Assembly: GCA_023129115.1 (NCBI GenBank)
Contig: JAGMCR010000012.1
Span: forward strand, 1-64,000
Direction of reading: 5' to 3'
Source: Candidatus Iainarchaeum sp.
GTDB lineage: Archaea; B1Sed10-29; WALL01
DNA length: 64,000 nucleotides
Part shown: piece by piece, positions 4,334-47,101 of the stretch
How the letters are laid out: the number at the start of each line of letters is the position of its first letter
Numbering within the stretch: the stretch's first letter is position 1
Notes under the pieces: generated by a model
The model's input: only the letters and a program-made list of their open reading frames with translations
What the model was told of the DNA's origin: nothing
Databases searched by the model: none
Translations under genes and position numbers: made by a program

Positions 4334-6862
4334 ATGAAGAAGACGGCAATTCTATTGGGGCTTCTGCTTGTCTTGAGTGGGGCATTCGCAGCTGTTGACA
4401 GTGTCCAGACGTACCGCGACGCCAATTTTACGGTTCTTGGTTCGGTCTTTAAGGACGGTGCCACGGTTTATGTCATGGGGTGGGACGGCGTAAAGAACGG
4501 AAGTGCGTTGCCGTCCACAACTGAGGGAGTTGTGAACCAAGCCAACACATCAATTAGCATAGGCTTCAACATTTTTGACGATGGGGGGACTGCCGCCCAA
4601 AGCTCAGACAACGCTACTGACGGGTTGTACCTCGGTAAATTCCAGATAAGTTCCACTGTATGGAGCGACCCCCTAGACACAATAAAGCTCCAGCACGGCG
4701 AAAAGGCCGAGATTGAGGTCGATATTGACACAAGCAGCGATGCTGGATACGCCAACATCACGGCGGACTACATCAAACCAAACATAACCAGCTGTAATGT
4801 CACCCCCTCTAAGCCAACGTGGCTTGGGTTTGGGCAGAACTTCAATGTCACACTCACTGGCGAGGCAAACGGGAGCGCGTGGTACTACTACAACAGCACG
4901 AACCAGACAATGACAGAAGTCTCGCCGGGTGTCTATTCGGCAAACTACACGGTTGGCTGGCCGGAATCCCACAAGGGCACCATCAGTTGCTACCACGCCG
5001 ACACCGCGGGCAACGAGGACAACGCGACTACGGCGGAAGAGCTCTGGGTGGACACTGCCGCACCAGTAATCTCGAACGTTCTCCCGTCCTGGTACACGTG
5101 GACCAACAACAACATGACCAACATCACTTTCAACGTGACGGACGCCGCGAGCGGCGTCAAGAACGCTTCGATAACTGACATTGTCGTGGGGAACTATTCT
5201 GTCACTAACGTTGGCAGCGCTTATACCGCGACGACCAACGTGGCACTGCCCGAGGGGAACGTTAGCTTCAACATCACGGCATTCGACAACGTCGGCAACA
5301 TGATAATCTCCTTCCACCCAAACCACTTTGGCGTGGACAGGGGCGCCCCCACAATAACAACGTACAGTCCGGTGAGCACGACTTACACCAATTGGTCGGT
5401 GAACTTCACTGTGAGCGCGAATGATACGTTTTCGCCGACAGTGGCCTGCACATACTACGTTGAGTCCACGGACATCTATGGCACAGTCCGGAACAGTACT
5501 TGGTGGGACACTATCCTCACGAACGGCAGCAACAGCACGACGAGTGTGTGGGTGAACGAGGGCTGGCAGAACGCCACCTACAACTGCTCTGACGAGGCGG
5601 GTAACGAAGTAAGAGGTGCCTTCCCCGCCTTCACGGTGGACATGCTCGCGTTCCGCACTGCCTGGATGGACATGAACAACACGTACCTGAGCAACCAGTC
5701 GTGCGCGTCCATAGATGGCTGGGTCGTTGACGACTACTCCAGCATGAGCAACATCATTATAGAAATCGGGGGCGTCGCCATCAACAGGACGTGGAACGGC
5801 ACCAACTTCTCTGCATTGTTCTGCCCCGACAACTCAACCGTGTGGCCGGACGGAGTGTACGACGTGAACGCCACGGTCAATGACACGGTGGGGAATATTG
5901 AGGAGATTCACTTCTATGACGTCACCATCGACAACACGCCGCCATCGTTCGTCTCGTACTTCCCGACCAACGGGACCGTATACAACGACTCCGTGGTCAA
6001 CTTCACGGTAACTGTCAGCGAGCCGGTCAGCACATGCAGCCTGTACGTGAACTCCACGACAACCGGGCTGATGCGCCTTTGGGCCATGCCCACAGGAAAC
6101 AACACGTTCAACGGCACGACCCTCCTGCCAAATGATGTCTATGTGGCTTGGTTCAACTGCACTGACTACACCGGCAATGTCAACGTCACCCCCAAGATGA
6201 CCATTACTGTGAACGATGTTACTGCGCCAAGGCGGGTCACCGGCCTGGCGGCGGCGGCGCAGGGCACGACCAAGATAAAGCTGGGCTGGGACATGAACCG
6301 CGCCCTGGATCTAGTGATGAACTACACTGTGTACCGCGCGACAAAAAGCGGCGGGCCGTACACGGCGGTGACCACACTCAACGCGGTCACATACACCGAC
6401 ACCGGGCTCACCGCGGACAAAAAGTATTACTACGTCGTGCGGGCGAGGGACTTTTACGGAAACCTTGGCCCCGCGTCGGCAGAGGCCAGCGCCAAGACGA
6501 AATCGGGCACCGGCGGGACAGGGGGCACCGGGCCCACTGGCGGCTGGATGCCAATAGCGACGCCGGACTCCAGCGACGACGTGCCCACTCCAACCCCAAC
6601 CCCCGAGCCAGTGCCGCTGCCGCCTGTCGAGGAGCGGGAGGAAGTTGTCGAAGAGCCGGTTGTGGAGCCAGAGGAAGAAGAGGCGCCCGCGCCGGCCCCA
6701 ACGCCTTTGCCCCCCGCCGCGCCAAAGTCGCCAGTGACAGGCCTGTTGTTTTCCGAGGGGAGCCTCATGTGGGGGCTTGCCGCGCTGATGGCGCTCGCCA
6801 CGATTTGGATGATGTGGGGCGTCAGCAAGAGAATGGCGAAGCGCAAGTGGTACGAAAAGTAA
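4334..6862 (+). CDS. Large secreted, C-terminally anchored surface protein with Ig/fn3-like domains
   Basis: Signal peptide, many NxS/T sequons, fn3-like segment, Pro/Glu-rich linker, C-terminal TM and basic tail; TATA-like gcttatatatgc about 30 nt upstream. Confidence 0.75.
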   Translation: MKKTAILLGLLLVLSGAFAAVDSVQTYRDANFTVLGSVFKDGATVYVMGWDGVKNGSALPSTTEGVVNQANTSISIGFNIFDDGGTAAQSSDNATDGLYLGKFQISSTVWSDPLDTIKLQHGEKAEIEVDIDTSSDAGYANITADYIKPNITSCNVTPSKPTWLGFGQNFNVTLTGEANGSAWYYYNSTNQTMTEVSPGVYSANYTVGWPESHKGTISCYHADTAGNEDNATTAEELWVDTAAPVISNVLPSWYTWTNNNMTNITFNVTDAASGVKNASITDIVVGNYSVTNVGSAYTATTNVALPEGNVSFNITAFDNVGNMIISFHPNHFGVDRGAPTITTYSPVSTTYTNWSVNFTVSANDTFSPTVACTYYVESTDIYGTVRNSTWWDTILTNGSNSTTSVWVNEGWQNATYNCSDEAGNEVRGAFPAFTVDMLAFRTAWMDMNNTYLSNQSCASIDGWVVDDYSSMSNIIIEIGGVAINRTWNGTNFSALFCPDNSTVWPDGVYDVNATVNDTVGNIEEIHFYDVTIDNTPPSFVSYFPTNGTVYNDSVVNFTVTVSEPVSTCSLYVNSTTTGLMRLWAMPTGNNTFNGTTLLPNDVYVAWFNCTDYTGNVNVTPKMTITVNDVTAPRRVTGLAAAAQGTTKIKLGWDMNRALDLVMNYTVYRATKSGGPYTAVTTLNAVTYTDTGLTADKKYYYVVRARDFYGNLGPASAEASAKTKSGTGGTGGTGPTGGWMPIATPDSSDDVPTPTPTPEPVPLPPVEEREEVVEEPVVEPEEEEAPAPAPTPLPPAAPKSPVTGLLFSEGSLMWGLAALMALATIWMMWGVSKRMAKRKWYEK

Positions 6863-9336: not shown

Positions 9337-9478
9337 TCCCTCCAATTGCGATTGGAGCAACCGCAGACTAAAGCGGGGCCAAAGGCCCCGCAAATAGGCA
9401 TATGCCGCCGGGAGGCCTTGTGCCTCCCTCGTCGAACGTGCCAGCTGAGTTTCAGCTGTTTGGATCTCTTCCCCCGCA
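9337..9478 (+). mobile_element. tRNA-associated hairpin element (Leu copy): 127-nt element plus 15-nt repeat
   Basis: ATCTCTTCCCCCGCA at 9322-9336 and 9464-9478; tail ACGTGCCAGCTGAGTTTCAGCTG. Confidence 0.78.
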
Positions 9479-13892: not shown

Positions 13893-13997
13893 GCCGGCCT
13901 AGCTCAGTTGGTTAGAGCGCCAGACTCATAGGGTTTCAACCGATGGGTTGCTTCCGGAGACATCTGGAAGTCGCGGGTTCAAGTCCCGTGGCCGGCA
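13893..13997 (+). tRNA. Elongator tRNA-Met(CAT) with anticodon-loop intron
   Basis: GCCGGCC/GGCCGGC acceptor, CCAGACTCATA...TCTGG with about 30-nt insert after position 37. Confidence 0.88.
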
Positions 13998-13999
13998 CT

Positions 14000-14141
14000 C
14001 CAAGCCTTTCTTTAGAAAAGAAAGGCTACGGGCTACCCAAAGAAACTATTTGAATAATACAGCCTGCCTATTTGCGGGGCCGAACGGCCCCGCTTTAGTC
14101 TAACGTGCCAGCTGAGTTTCAGCTGTTCCGTGGCCGGCGCT
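14000..14141 (+). mobile_element. tRNA-associated hairpin element (Met copy) plus repeat of tRNA 3' end
   Basis: CCGTGGCCGGCACT (13986-13999) repeated as CCGTGGCCGGCGCT at 14128-14141; tail AACGTGCCAGCTGAGTTTCAGCTG. Confidence 0.75.
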
Positions 14142-14148
14142 TAACCCT

Positions 14149-15531
14149 TCAATCCAGATTCTTGACAAGGTCTTCCAGAGCATCAAGTTCGCCCACCTGT
14201 TTGCCATACATCTTCAGTGCCAAGTCTGCCATAATCTCATCAGGAACTTTAGTTTCAAGACCGTACCCCGCTTTCTTCACTTCCTTTATCATCATGTCAG
14301 AAACAGTTTTCTTTTTCTTAAGCATTTTATGAAGAGGGTTGACAACATCAACATACCTATCGTGCATCAGTTCCTTGGAGAAGCTGAAGAACCTCTTGCA
14401 GTAGTTATAAACATCCTTATTCTCAAGCCCCTCGTATGCACTGTGGTACTGCAAGTGTCTCCTTACATGAGTATGTGGTGGGATATACACTGAGTTTCCC
14501 TCAACCTTAAAGGGTTTTTCCAGCCCAATCTCAGAGGGAATAACCTCCATGAAGTCCTGGTGAACCTTTCTTTGCGCATACTTCATCAGCACACTCATGG
14601 CAATCATGTTACTGAGAAAATTTGTATCTCCTGAACGCTGCTCCAGTGTGCCCAATTTATTTATCCTAACCGGTCCCCAGCAAAGATCGAGTATGCTCCT
14701 ACATTTTTTGATATCTTCAGGAGAAACGCCCTGCTTCTTCAGTTCCCTCTTCACCCTGTTATACCTACTCTCCATAGTATATATCAAATCAGTGAGCGTC
14801 TGCTTGTAGGGTGGCAGCCCACCGTACTGCTGGAATCCAGTGTATTGTCCCTTCATGTATTTCAGTGCCCTGCCCCCCCTATTAATCACAACCCTGGAAT
14901 CCTTTGCCAGGAACTTGCCGTCGACAAAAGGAGAGGATTGCAGGAACGTAATGAATACTGGGTCCATAGCTATGGCCAGATTATAACTGTCTATCAAAGT
15001 TTTCTTGATCTTGGGCCCTAACATGGGCTTCAGGAACTTCTTTTTCTTATCAAACACTCCACGGGGCAAAGTATAGTGGCAGTGAAATCCGAGCGTCCTG
15101 CTTCCCAGCCTGTTTTTTTCAGCACCAACCAGTTTCTCGTGCATTATGTATCGATTATCTCTTCTCATCTCTTCCTCAAAGTAGCCAGGATATGTAGAAA
15201 GCGGGTAAATCAGGATGTTGTGCCCTTCGGCAACTTCAATAAGCGTCTTATAGCTCTTTATTATATCTAGTGCAATGTTCTGAACCTTTACAGATGGGAA
15301 GGAAGTGAGCTCGACCATATGTTTTGCTTCTTCTTGTACAATGGGCATCTCTTTATCTCTCTTCTTGCATTCCCTGATAACCAGGTCTGCTTTGTTTACA
15401 ATATAGCCTTTCTCATCCAATGTTTGAATCTCAATCTCAATGCCTGTTTTTGACCTCTTAAGAGGAGATTTCTCTTTCTTTTTAATTTCAGACCCCTCCT
15501 TTTGGTTTCTTGAACCTGAATAAATCCTCAA
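14149..15531 (-). CDS. GCS2-type carboxylate-amine ligase (glutamate-cysteine ligase family 2-like)
   Basis: TGIEIEIQTLDEKGY, LGFHCHYTLP, LGTLEQRSGDTNF motifs. Confidence 0.72.
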   Translation of the reverse strand: MRIYSGSRNQKEGSEIKKKEKSPLKRSKTGIEIEIQTLDEKGYIVNKADLVIRECKKRDKEMPIVQEEAKHMVELTSFPSVKVQNIALDIIKSYKTLIEVAEGHNILIYPLSTYPGYFEEEMRRDNRYIMHEKLVGAEKNRLGSRTLGFHCHYTLPRGVFDKKKKFLKPMLGPKIKKTLIDSYNLAIAMDPVFITFLQSSPFVDGKFLAKDSRVVINRGGRALKYMKGQYTGFQQYGGLPPYKQTLTDLIYTMESRYNRVKRELKKQGVSPEDIKKCRSILDLCWGPVRINKLGTLEQRSGDTNFLSNMIAMSVLMKYAQRKVHQDFMEVIPSEIGLEKPFKVEGNSVYIPPHTHVRRHLQYHSAYEGLENKDVYNYCKRFFSFSKELMHDRYVDVVNPLHKMLKKKKTVSDMMIKEVKKAGYGLETKVPDEIMADLALKMYGKQVGELDALEDLVKNLD

Positions 15532-16672
15532 TGTTTTTAGAAAGTTTTTTCACCTTACGCTTATAAGTTCTACAGTGTTTTTTATCCATGTATAACTTTT
15601 TGTTAATTTCCATGGAGAAGATGAATACATCTGGGAACTGCTTTGCTAGATGCTCTAGTATATATCCCGCTCCAAAAGGGTTGTTTATCAACACTTCCTC
15701 CTTTACTTCAAGCTCAAGATTCTCCTTCATTTTCATTATTATGGGATAGTAGAACCTAGGCGAGAAATCAATCCCAAAGCTGAAGGGGGGCCTATCAGGC
15801 TCGTCTACCATAGAGTGGGCGTCAAATATTATGTTGAACCGGTAGGTATCTATGAGCTGGTTGAGCACATGGTAAAAGTAGTCATACCTCTCCAGTATTC
15901 TTTCCTTCTGCTTGTTTCCCAGGCTCCTTTTCCAGATATTCTGAACTCTCTTCTCTGAAGTGTTGGTGTATACTGCAGACTCCCTACTCCGGTTATAGTC
16001 ACACACAAACCGGGACTGCTTGTTATCTATCCAAATGCCCCCCCTATCTAACACCAGAGGGCCGTAAATTAGATCCGTACCTATGTCCTCCTCCATTAAA
16101 CGTTTTGATTTGCGTAGAGCCATTAAAGACTTAATATACTTCGGCACCCATACTCCAGCATGGGCAGTTATTAGCAGGATGTTGAATTTGTTCCTCTTGT
16201 AGTTGTCATAAATCATTGTTCCATACTTTGTGATTGTGAGCTTTATGTTTGGGTAATTTTTATGGTGATGTTTTATGTCCGCTTTCACAAGCTCGTAGAG
16301 CTCTTTCTCTGGAAAGAACTTTCTGAACCAGAGTGTGTTCCTGTTCCTATAGAAATAGCTAATTGTTCCATCAAGCACAGGTTCGAATGCCTTGTAACTG
16401 TAGAGCAGAGATACAAATGAAAGGTGGAGGTTCTTATCTATTCTCTCATTTACCTTCTTGAGTTCTTGTAGAAAGTCAGCGTAATATTGGAAAGAAAGAA
16501 ACTTTTTTTGTTGATTCATGACAAAAGAAATGGTGGTATGAGCTGAGTTAAACAATGGTTTAAGAAGAGAAGGTACTCTCTCTGCTTCTTTATGTGTCAT
16601 CAATAAGCCTCTTAATCTTATTCTAGCTTCTTGTGTTGAAATAGTTAACGGTCTGTTGCAAGTTGCCGGCAC
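15488..16672 (-). CDS. N-formylglutamate amidohydrolase-like protein
   Basis: LLITAHAGVWVP, DLIYGPLVLDRGG, DYNRSRES, IIFDAHSMVD, IDFSPRFY; internal ATG at 16600 is a possible true start. Confidence 0.72.
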   Translation of the reverse strand: MPATCNRPLTISTQEARIRLRGLLMTHKEAERVPSLLKPLFNSAHTTISFVMNQQKKFLSFQYYADFLQELKKVNERIDKNLHLSFVSLLYSYKAFEPVLDGTISYFYRNRNTLWFRKFFPEKELYELVKADIKHHHKNYPNIKLTITKYGTMIYDNYKRNKFNILLITAHAGVWVPKYIKSLMALRKSKRLMEEDIGTDLIYGPLVLDRGGIWIDNKQSRFVCDYNRSRESAVYTNTSEKRVQNIWKRSLGNKQKERILERYDYFYHVLNQLIDTYRFNIIFDAHSMVDEPDRPPFSFGIDFSPRFYYPIIMKMKENLELEVKEEVLINNPFGAGYILEHLAKQFPDVFIFSMEINKKLYMDKKHCRTYKRKVKKLSKNIEDLFRFKKPKGGV

Positions 16673-16706
16673 TGATGCTTAGCTCAATGTGCCCGTGGCC
16701 GGCACT
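16669..16706 (+). pseudogene. Shrunken tRNA-Met remnant / distal repeat of the tRNA-Met 3' end
   Basis: CCGGCACTGATGCTTAGCTCAATGTGCCCGTGGCCGGCACT keeps acceptor-like, TTAGCTCA-like and CCGTGGCCGGCACT (16693-16706) pieces. Confidence 0.6.
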
Positions 16707-16825
16707 TTTTCTCGGCAAGGCTTAGTCAATACAAGTTATAAACACCGAATCCCTAAGGCCCAACAGCTAGCTAATCCATAAAAATAACATAAGATTTATA
16801 TATGTGAATATAGCATAAAATTAAC

Positions 16826-17077
16826 ATGAATATTAGTATGCATTTTGAAGGTTTTATGGAAGAAATAATCGAGAGGCTTTTGGAACAAGGAATCGCAAAA
16901 ACAAAGGCTGAAGCACTCAGGCTTGGATTGCTGGAGTTGAACGACAAATACCAACTAGTCGGGATAGACAAGGAATTGAAAGCAGATATACTCGAGATAA
17001 ACAGGATTGATAGGGACATCAAAACAGGCAAAGAAAAAGTGTATTCTGTCAAGAATGTTGATGAGCTGCTGGCATGA
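16826..17077 (+). CDS. Putative antitoxin, CopG/RHH-like
   Basis: Small ORF with AKTKAEALRLGLLELN, overlapping the toxin start. Confidence 0.6.
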   Translation: MNISMHFEGFMEEIIERLLEQGIAKTKAEALRLGLLELNDKYQLVGIDKELKADILEINRIDRDIKTGKEKVYSVKNVDELLA

Positions 17078-17319
17078 AAATCAAAAGAACAGATACATTC
17101 AAAAAAGACATCAAAAAACTGGATTCCCAAAGCAAAAAAATTCTTGGAAAAGTAATTAAAAAAATTCTTGCCAGTCCAGAGAGATTCAAGCCAATGAAAT
17201 ACCATTCAAACATATTCAGAATCAGGTTCAGTAAATTCCGGTTGGTCTACAAAGTTGACCAAGACTTGATTACGTTCATGTTCGTAAGAAAAAGGCCCAC
17301 GGCATATAGAAATGTATGA
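17074..17319 (+). CDS. RelE/ParE-family toxin
   Basis: DTFKKDIKKLDSQSKKILGKVIKKILASP...IRFSKFRLVYKVD...RKRPTAYRNV. Confidence 0.78.
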   Translation: MKIKRTDTFKKDIKKLDSQSKKILGKVIKKILASPERFKPMKYHSNIFRIRFSKFRLVYKVDQDLITFMFVRKRPTAYRNV

Positions 17320-17370
17320 CTTTTCGAGACTTGGGTTACGTGTGTGCCCATTGCCAGCACGTCTTTCTGT

Positions 17371-23606: not shown

Positions 23607-23668
23607 CTTATTTTTCTCGGCAAGGCGTATACTCGCGCGTATATTAAGGCCTATTCCGTTTTCTGTTT

Positions 23669-24316
23669 GTGAGAAAAAATATGATAAAACAGCAAAAAGC
23701 CTGGGTGGGCCCCACCAAAGCCAGGCTAATAGCAAGGCTTATGGCGGACGGAGCCGTCTACAAAGTTAAGTCTAATTATACCATGAAGTATGAGTGCCAG
23801 GACATGAAATTGTTAGAGTCGTTCGCAAATGACTTCAAAGAAGTCTATGGCCTCAAGCCAAAGAAGGAGTGGAACAAATCCGGAAAGACGGGTAGACTGT
23901 TACCAGGTTACCGGGTTAGGAGCATAGATGCCTACAAAGACCTCGTGTCTTACAGCAGTTACTACTCAAGAAAATGGAGGGTGCCACTAGAAATAATTGG
24001 CGCTTCAAAGGATGTGCAGAAGTGCTTCGTCCAAGCATTCTTTGACGATGAAGGCACGGTTCTGAGAAAAGTCAACCTGCTTCGGATGTATTCTATAAAC
24101 AAACGTGGGCTGGAAGATGTGGGGCTTCTTCTCAGGAGCTTTGGCATACCCCACAAAATCCGGCCGGGCTTTGGTCTAAAGCGGAATGTCTACGCCATCG
24201 AAGTTGTTGGTAGAGAAAAAGTGAGGAAATTCTACTTGACTTTTGGCTCGATGTGCCACAAAAAGAAGGCTGCCATGGAAAGCATTGTAACAAAAACTAA
24301 TAAGCAAGCTTTTTAA
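23669..24316 (+). CDS. LAGLIDADG-type homing endonuclease-like protein
   Basis: ARLIARLMADGAVYKV and CFVQAFFDDEGTVLRK double-motif spacing. Confidence 0.78.
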   Translation: MRKNMIKQQKAWVGPTKARLIARLMADGAVYKVKSNYTMKYECQDMKLLESFANDFKEVYGLKPKKEWNKSGKTGRLLPGYRVRSIDAYKDLVSYSSYYSRKWRVPLEIIGASKDVQKCFVQAFFDDEGTVLRKVNLLRMYSINKRGLEDVGLLLRSFGIPHKIRPGFGLKRNVYAIEVVGREKVRKFYLTFGSMCHKKKAAMESIVTKTNKQAF

Positions 24317-45436: not shown

Positions 45437-46927
45437 TTATACTAACATTAGATATAGGGGTATTGGCACCATCATGATACTTAGCTTATTAGAGAACATC
45501 CCAAAATCTTGTTTTGTAAGCATTATTTTTGGATGTGAATTAAATGACAGCAAGCCTTTGAAATCTCCTTTTTCTATTTTGTTTTGATATTTGACTTCAA
45601 AACCCATCAATTGGTCTCCTGTATTTAATACATAATCTACTTCAGTATCTTTTTCAGAGAAAAATAGTAGATGGTTCCATGGTTCAAATACATCTCTTGG
45701 ATTATGTGCAAAAGCCACTCGAACTAGATGATCCCCAACAACCGCTTCTACTAAATTAGATTTCAATTGAGTATCCAACAAGAAATTAATTGAATGAGAA
45801 AAAGGGTCTGAAACACCATCGAGATGACCGCGAATACAATGGAAGAAAAAGGGATTGCATACAAAAACCTTCTTTTCATGGGCACGCGTGTCAGGCACCC
45901 TACTCTCAGTTATTCTAAATACTACATGGAGAAAGAACATATCCCGCAGTAAATAACAGTAACTACGAACCGTTTTTAGGCTGCGTCTGATATTTTTTGC
46001 CATTGCACCCCAATTTGTGTCCGAGCCCATGACACTAATAACTTCCCGAAGCACTTCTTCTGTAATAACTATATCCCGTTTAAGAGTTTTCGTGTCTTCA
46101 TTGAGGTATTTCCAATACACATCATAAACAGAAGGAGGGATGGAACGATTGCTGAAAAAATGGTTGACTGCGGGCATAACCCCTCCATTGATTAGATATT
46201 CATCAAAAAGAGTATTCAGCTCAGAAGAAAATGGCCTTAGGGCTTGTAATCCTTTTGGGACCTCCCCCTCAAATAATGCTGCTCTAGCAGCAATTCTTGC
46301 TTCGTTACCGAGAAGGTTATATTCCTCAAGCACGCGTTGTATTTCTGGATTTCGTAAGCCAACGTACTCTGCAAACTTCATGGGTGCTAAGATTTTATGG
46401 GTGGTTAGCCCCTGATATTCACCAGAACGCCCAGTGAAATAATTTAAGGCTTTACCTATCTCAACGGAATGAGAGCCACTAACTAAAATAGAGAGATTTT
46501 TCCTGTGGGTCTCTTTAAATGGTTTAATTGCCTCCCACCAGTTTTCGACGCGGGAAATCTCATCTAAAAAAATGAATTTCCTTCCAGAACTTAGAGTGTT
46601 ACTCCAATCAAAGTAAGTGTTCAGTAAACTGAGTAATTTACCGGGTTTGAGTATTGTATCACAGGAAATATAGCATATATCATAGGGATTAATCCCTGCC
46701 TCAAGTTTCTCACGTATTAGTAATTTCATTAGGGTGGTTTTACCTACTTGTCGTGGTCCTCTAATAGAACCAATAGTGTCCATCTCAAGATTGGCCGCAA
46801 TATACTGCTTTATCCTAGGCTTCCATTTTAGCGGGGCTTCCTCAAATTTTTCAATCTCATAGTCTTGACTAATAGTAGATTTGTCCGCCCACCAGGGGTT
46901 TTGTTTTGAAATATCATTCCAATTCAT
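45437..46927 (-). CDS. AAA ATPase with C-terminal DUF4143-like region
   Basis: GSIRGPRQVGKTTLMKLL (Walker A), KFIFLDEISRVENWWEAIK (Walker B), ILVSGSHSVEI. Confidence 0.85.
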   Translation of the reverse strand: MNWNDISKQNPWWADKSTISQDYEIEKFEEAPLKWKPRIKQYIAANLEMDTIGSIRGPRQVGKTTLMKLLIREKLEAGINPYDICYISCDTILKPGKLLSLLNTYFDWSNTLSSGRKFIFLDEISRVENWWEAIKPFKETHRKNLSILVSGSHSVEIGKALNYFTGRSGEYQGLTTHKILAPMKFAEYVGLRNPEIQRVLEEYNLLGNEARIAARAALFEGEVPKGLQALRPFSSELNTLFDEYLINGGVMPAVNHFFSNRSIPPSVYDVYWKYLNEDTKTLKRDIVITEEVLREVISVMGSDTNWGAMAKNIRRSLKTVRSYCYLLRDMFFLHVVFRITESRVPDTRAHEKKVFVCNPFFFHCIRGHLDGVSDPFSHSINFLLDTQLKSNLVEAVVGDHLVRVAFAHNPRDVFEPWNHLLFFSEKDTEVDYVLNTGDQLMGFEVKYQNKIEKGDFKGLLSFNSHPKIMLTKQDFGMFSNKLSIMMVPIPLYLMLV

Positions 46928-47101
46928 ATAAACCAAACAGGACCGATATATGAGTTTGTTTATATATAAAACTGTATCCATCTATGAGTTTGTTTATAAA
47001 TGGAAATGGAATGTTCTGGTATGACCTATATTGAGTATACCCCATATAGCATATATCTACAAGAGCGTGTATTGGCGTATCCAGGGCGTGTGTGTGCGTG
47101 T

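Follow-up and report, generated by a model that had tools for sequence, protein, structure and literature searches.

The window examined here comprises 64,000 nucleotides of an archaeal contig (JAGMCR010000012.1, Candidatus Iainarchaeum sp.) from a 1.25-Mb assembly of 19 contigs that is 88.6% complete. Its forward strand carries an intron-containing tRNA-Met (CAT) gene (13893-13998), recognized by the Rfam model with a score of 61 bits. Because of the intron, a plain ARAGORN run miscalled the anticodon and did not give the correct call. The 3' end of this tRNA, located by sequence match at 13985-13999 (+), is the presumed attachment site of an island. Its tail, CCGTGGCCGGCACT, occurs on the forward strand at 13986-13999, at 14128-14141 with one mismatch and again at 16693-16706. 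Over the 15 letters of the tRNA 3' end, the copy at 14127-14141 (+) agrees in 13 and the copy at 16692-16706 (+) in all 15.

These three copies had been proposed in the initial annotation, and both their exact positions and the window shuffles agree with it. Allowing up to two mismatches, the whole window contains five matches to CCGTGGCCGGCACT, compared to 0.77 expected, and no shuffle reached five. The proposed extent of the island fared less well. Its two-gene operon does lie between tail copies, but the island does not end at 16706: a fourth, decayed copy, TGTGCCCATTGCCAGCACG, marks the right edge at 17343-17361 (+; 15 of 19 letters), and none of 2000 shuffles produced a match as good (p<0.0005). 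In addition, a 9-nt partial copy, GCCGGCACT, at 16665-16673 (+) precedes the same letters of the 16692-16706 copy by exactly 33 bp, a coincidence that no shuffle equalled, and it may be an integrase arm site. With an intact tRNA-Met on one side and its 3' end directly repeated on the other, the locus has the layout of a tRNA-integrated island.

Three units stand behind the tRNA. The nearest is a 127-bp hairpin element (14000-14126, +) that ends in AACGTGCC followed by the hairpin AGCTGAGTTTCAGCT at 14102-14125. The copy at 14127-14141 follows it, and beyond that copy lies the cargo operon on the reverse strand. Its first gene (15488-16600, -) resembles N-formylglutamate amidohydrolases and matches PF05013 (FGase) with an E value of 4.5e-21 in a profile search; the frame is open to 16672, and comparison with homologs places the likely start near the ATG at 16600. 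The second (14149-15531, -) resembles GCS2-type carboxylate-amine ligases and matches PF04107 with an E value of 5e-5, just over the curated cut-off. Both family assignments of the initial annotation are thus borne out. The two genes overlap each other, and the ligase-like gene ends 8 bp from the 14127-14141 copy. Judging by family, the encoded enzymes would form and hydrolyse amide bonds. Sequence comparison found no relatives of either protein among solved structures, and the AlphaFold models (mean pLDDT of 43 and 37) were too poor to use.

The third unit (16707-17342, +) has a GC content of 35.7% and encodes a probable antitoxin (16826-17077, +), which has no family match, and a ParE/RelE-like toxin (17074-17319, +) recognized by family match. 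GC content returns to the backbone level at the decayed copy. PADLOC gave zero matches for the cargo and toxin-antitoxin genes, and we rejected a known defence system as an explanation on that ground. Profile searches likewise found no PF00589 match in the island, which places no integrase within the element, and no replication or capsid genes in any of its units. Separately, the left end of the toxin-antitoxin unit, TTTTTCTCGGCAAGGC (16706-16721), has an exact 16-letter match at 23611-23626 behind tRNA-Pro(CGG), where a LAGLIDADG-type gene (23669-24316) comes next.

The operon differs in composition from its surroundings. The GC content of 14142-16664 is 41.3%, compared to 55.7% for the window, and among the 43 large ORFs the two cargo genes rank second and third lowest in GC3 and second and fourth lowest in codon fit to the backbone. 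Both checks therefore confirm the more AT-rich base composition and codon usage first suspected here. The lowest GC3 of the window belongs to another AT-rich gene, an AAA_14/DUF4143 ATPase (45437-46981) with no adjoining tRNA.

The operon is also patchily distributed. In a sample of 119 other archaeal genomes, which includes 18 of the same class, we found no amidohydrolase homologs. An operon with the same gene order is present in two Woesearchaeota MAGs and in one contig labelled Aminicenantes, with identities of 43-47% for the amidohydrolase and 40-41% for the ligase; in the motif regions of the amidohydrolase, the histidine and acidic residues are invariant among the aligned homologs. The surroundings of the operon on the Candidatus Aminicenantes-labelled contig (L135) look archaeal, and this contig is probably misbinned. 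Because the operon occurs in Woesearchaeota while its amidohydrolase is missing from nearer genomes, its distribution points to horizontal acquisition.

The tRNA-Met locus of the only congener compared (G001) offers a direct comparison. The order of a DUF116 gene followed by tRNA-Met is kept there, and behind the tRNA come a 64-nt hairpin element, a single tail copy and a further gene; the operon cassette is absent directly behind the tRNA, within the 320 nt before the contig ends. The view of the initial annotation, that an element or cassette carrying real genes occupies the same type of site as the small elements, draws support from the composition, the absence of homologs in 119 genomes and this locus. 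What it had named as grounds for abandoning that view, a gene pair conserved at the locus without repeats and with no compositional difference, is not what we observed over the stretch that G001 covers.

Could the island instead be the decayed remnant of one larger plasmid or virus, which lost its integrase and gained the inner tails through duplication or homologous recombination? The toxin-antitoxin pair would fit, since such genes are common on integrated plasmids and viruses. Loss of the integrase after integration is known for archaeal integrated elements (PMC8371274). In the searches made, viral contigs yielded no relatives of either cargo protein, and phages none of the amidohydrolase; on these grounds we rejected a viral or phage origin of the cargo. 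The plasmid matches were to ordinary rhizobial N-formylglutamate amidohydrolases and were confined to the catalytic core, at about 30%. These absences, the lack of replication and capsid genes and the fact that every unit has a tail copy of its own as a boundary, like those of the tRNA-Thr and tRNA-Ser arrays described below, make a single decayed element an unlikely source of the island.

We surveyed the rest of the genome downstream of tRNAs and around hairpin matches. In 713 kb downstream of tRNA genes, exact tRNA-tail copies number 13 on the same strand and none on the opposite strand; with one mismatch, the counts are 20 and 1. This bias bears on the simplest alternative, namely that the repeats at tRNA-Met are chance or inherited tRNA fragments around a native operon. 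Single short repeats do arise randomly, as the 0.77 expected matches illustrate. The window shuffles and the genome-wide strand bias rule out chance repeats, and with the atypical composition and the absence from 119 genomes also standing against a native operon, this alternative as a whole is extremely improbable.

The largest array lies behind tRNA-Thr(CGT), where eleven same-strand tail copies separate cassettes over 18 kb (L080 1373-19901; G000 C12:74872-93400). Its cassettes encode an isochorismatase, a tyrosine recombinase together with a large protein, a TFIIB-repeat protein, a PadR/oxidoreductase/CrtC/UbiA-like cluster and an AAA-DUF4143 ATPase, among others. At tRNA-Ser(GCT), the array consists of a hairpin element, a cassette with an ATPase and a DUF523-type protein (2-thiouracil desulfurase family) and a membrane-protein cassette. 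Another cassette array with repeats is anchored just behind the 3' end of the 23S rRNA gene (L044; G000 C7:60000-74155). On a separate contig of the congener G001, copies of the Ser tail stand between a hairpin element, an antitoxin-like gene and a gene that PADLOC assigns to the Fic family. Given the larger stacks at other genes of the same genome, the tRNA end seems to be a docking site for serial gene import. Elsewhere in the genome, GGAGTAGCTTCTGAGCC repeats occur with toxin-antitoxin genes between them (L046; G000 C1:59000-69000).

Hairpin elements accompany these arrays. The family has sites at 14102-14125 and 9435-9458 of the window and about 20 more in the genome, and each element lies between the 3' end of a gene and a copy of that end. 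They share a right end, AACGTGCC plus the hairpin, whose stem covaries, with three of seven pairs changed on both sides. We found them at over a dozen tRNA genes and also at protein-gene 3' ends, in each case with the host gene's own end copied. Among 120 genomes, a 25-nt hairpin pattern with up to two mismatches appears only in this one and in G001. One ribonuclease Z-like gene has three copies of its 3' end, separated by two hairpin elements (L049 2880-3250; G000 C9); read by eye, all differences between the first two copies are synonymous. A thermosome-like gene likewise has its 3' end repeated beyond a hairpin element (L045 894-2568; G000 C1).

Such elements invite a different explanation of the repeats, as target-site duplications left by an integrase of the transposition type (casposase/Cas1-like or another kind) rather than tyrosine-recombinase cores. 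Near-identical hairpin right ends at tRNA, protein-gene and rRNA 3' ends, each with its own end copied, would fit this idea. Against it, the duplicated length varies from 8 to about 50 nt, the largest array contains a tyrosine recombinase gene, and the 88.6% complete genome has no match to Cas1 (PF01867), on which basis we rejected Cas1-type insertion as the resident machinery. Target-site duplication is accordingly improbable as an account of the island. Because the many unrelated tails at hairpin elements go beyond one recombinase with one core, the hairpin elements and the gene cassettes may differ in means while using the same sites.

The recombinase in the tRNA-Thr array, on contig C12, is the only PF00589 tyrosine recombinase detected in the genome. 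It is XerA-like, with a score far below the XerA family cut-off. G001 has a recombinase 42% identical to it directly behind tRNA-Ser(GCT), and G004, from the same family, has one that is 85% identical; we found no tail arrays around the recombinase relatives in G004, G016 and G051. At the start of the recombinase gene lies an inverted tRNA-Thr tail, with 14 letters exact in G004 (C17) and 11 of 12 in G000 (L080, about 4840-4865). This tail possibly serves self-regulation and suggests a preference of the C12 enzyme for tRNA-Thr, in which case the Met units may have depended on a different one. At 88.6% completeness, the assembly may lack further integrase genes. The 33-bp spacing of the partial copy in the Met cassette (9 nt) recurs over 6 nt in two of the Thr cassettes (p of about 0.06 for each), and inverted flanks such as CCACGTCAAGGAGC and GCTCCTTGACGTGG are present at several of them. 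From sequence, these partial copies and inverted flanks look like recombinase arm sites.

Rows of one- to three-gene cassettes, with a tyrosine recombinase in one array, also recall a true integron with IntI and attC sites, and archaeal integrons do exist (PMC9668308). The C12 recombinase, however, scores 46.8 bits against the integron integrase model TIGR02249, compared to a cut-off of 265, and we rejected an IntI-type integrase accordingly. The unit boundaries are copies of tRNA 3' ends with element-specific flanks and, judged by eye, do not appear to be folded attC sites. We regard an integron in the strict sense as hardly credible.

The reading we favor, with a probability of roughly 75%, is that integrase-less cassettes were put in by site-specific recombination at the tRNA-Met 3' end and stacked serially. 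The tRNA 3' end would act as the attachment site, at which mobile cassettes insert one behind another; every insertion would keep the tRNA working and displace the older copies of its 3' end outward. Such a process could yield the present stack, in which a miniature hairpin element is followed by the amidohydrolase/ligase cassette, the toxin-antitoxin cassette and the decayed copy. As none of the three Met units contains a recombinase, insertion would have depended on a tyrosine recombinase that acted in trans or has since been lost. Directly observed are the repeats, the break in composition, the patchy distribution and the other arrays of the same design, one of which holds the only detected tyrosine recombinase. 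Recombination as the mechanism, the order of insertion, the acting enzyme and the mobility of the units are what we infer. Counting against serial site-specific insertion, the sole detected recombinase sits at tRNA-Thr rather than tRNA-Met, no tail array surrounds its relative in G004 (85% identity), and hairpin elements occur at many genes with unrelated tails.

Parts of this picture are already known: elements accrete in tandem at tRNA genes, and some bacterial islands carry repeated tRNA tails. In 'Ca. Methylopumilus', additive flexible genomic islands carry repeated tRNA-Lys 3' ends (PMC10872708); these islands are bacterial and use one tRNA, and the accessible text of that report describes neither genome-wide miniature hairpins nor the use of rRNA or protein-gene ends. 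Archaeal mobile elements integrated in tandem at tRNA genes share with the Met island serial insertion at one tRNA 3' end, boundaries made of tail fragments and integrase loss, but they are mostly whole plasmids, viruses and cryptic elements (2.6-98 kb in Thaumarchaeota), whereas the units here measure 0.1-5 kb and mostly lack an integrase (PMC6563490, PMC8371274). Tycheposons of Prochlorococcus and other taxa, as summarised in the accessible text of PMC10872708, are also tRNA-targeted, carry a tyrosine recombinase and cargo genes and have tRNA-Met as one site; by that summary they span 4-200 kb, a size that sets them apart from the Met units. Integrons, including archaeal ones (PMC9668308), similarly combine arrays of small gene cassettes with a tyrosine recombinase, but their boundaries are attC sites rather than tRNA 3' ends and their recombinase is IntI.

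The present case stands out for its small units, most of which lack an integrase, for how many genes, and of which kinds, are used, and for the hairpin elements. We consider the small integrase-less cassettes in this archaeal lineage, together with the accompanying miniature hairpin elements, to be new; our literature search, which left most subscription journals outside its reach, found no paper describing such stacks. A broader and much more tentative proposal is that this archaeal genus has a dispersed, integron-like capture system. In such a system, the 3' ends of stable RNA genes and some protein genes would be its many docking sites, small integrase-less cassettes would be stacked there, the recombinase of one array would serve others in trans, and the hairpin elements would be the minimal mobile units.

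DPANN archaea, which probably include the present one, have small genomes, and few ways by which they gain genes are known. Tail-bounded cassette stacks would give this lineage a readable record of gene imports, among them an operon shared with Woesearchaeota, toxin-antitoxin pairs, a carotenoid-like cluster and ATPases. They would also offer a testable mechanism, and they prompt the question of how units that lack a recombinase move.
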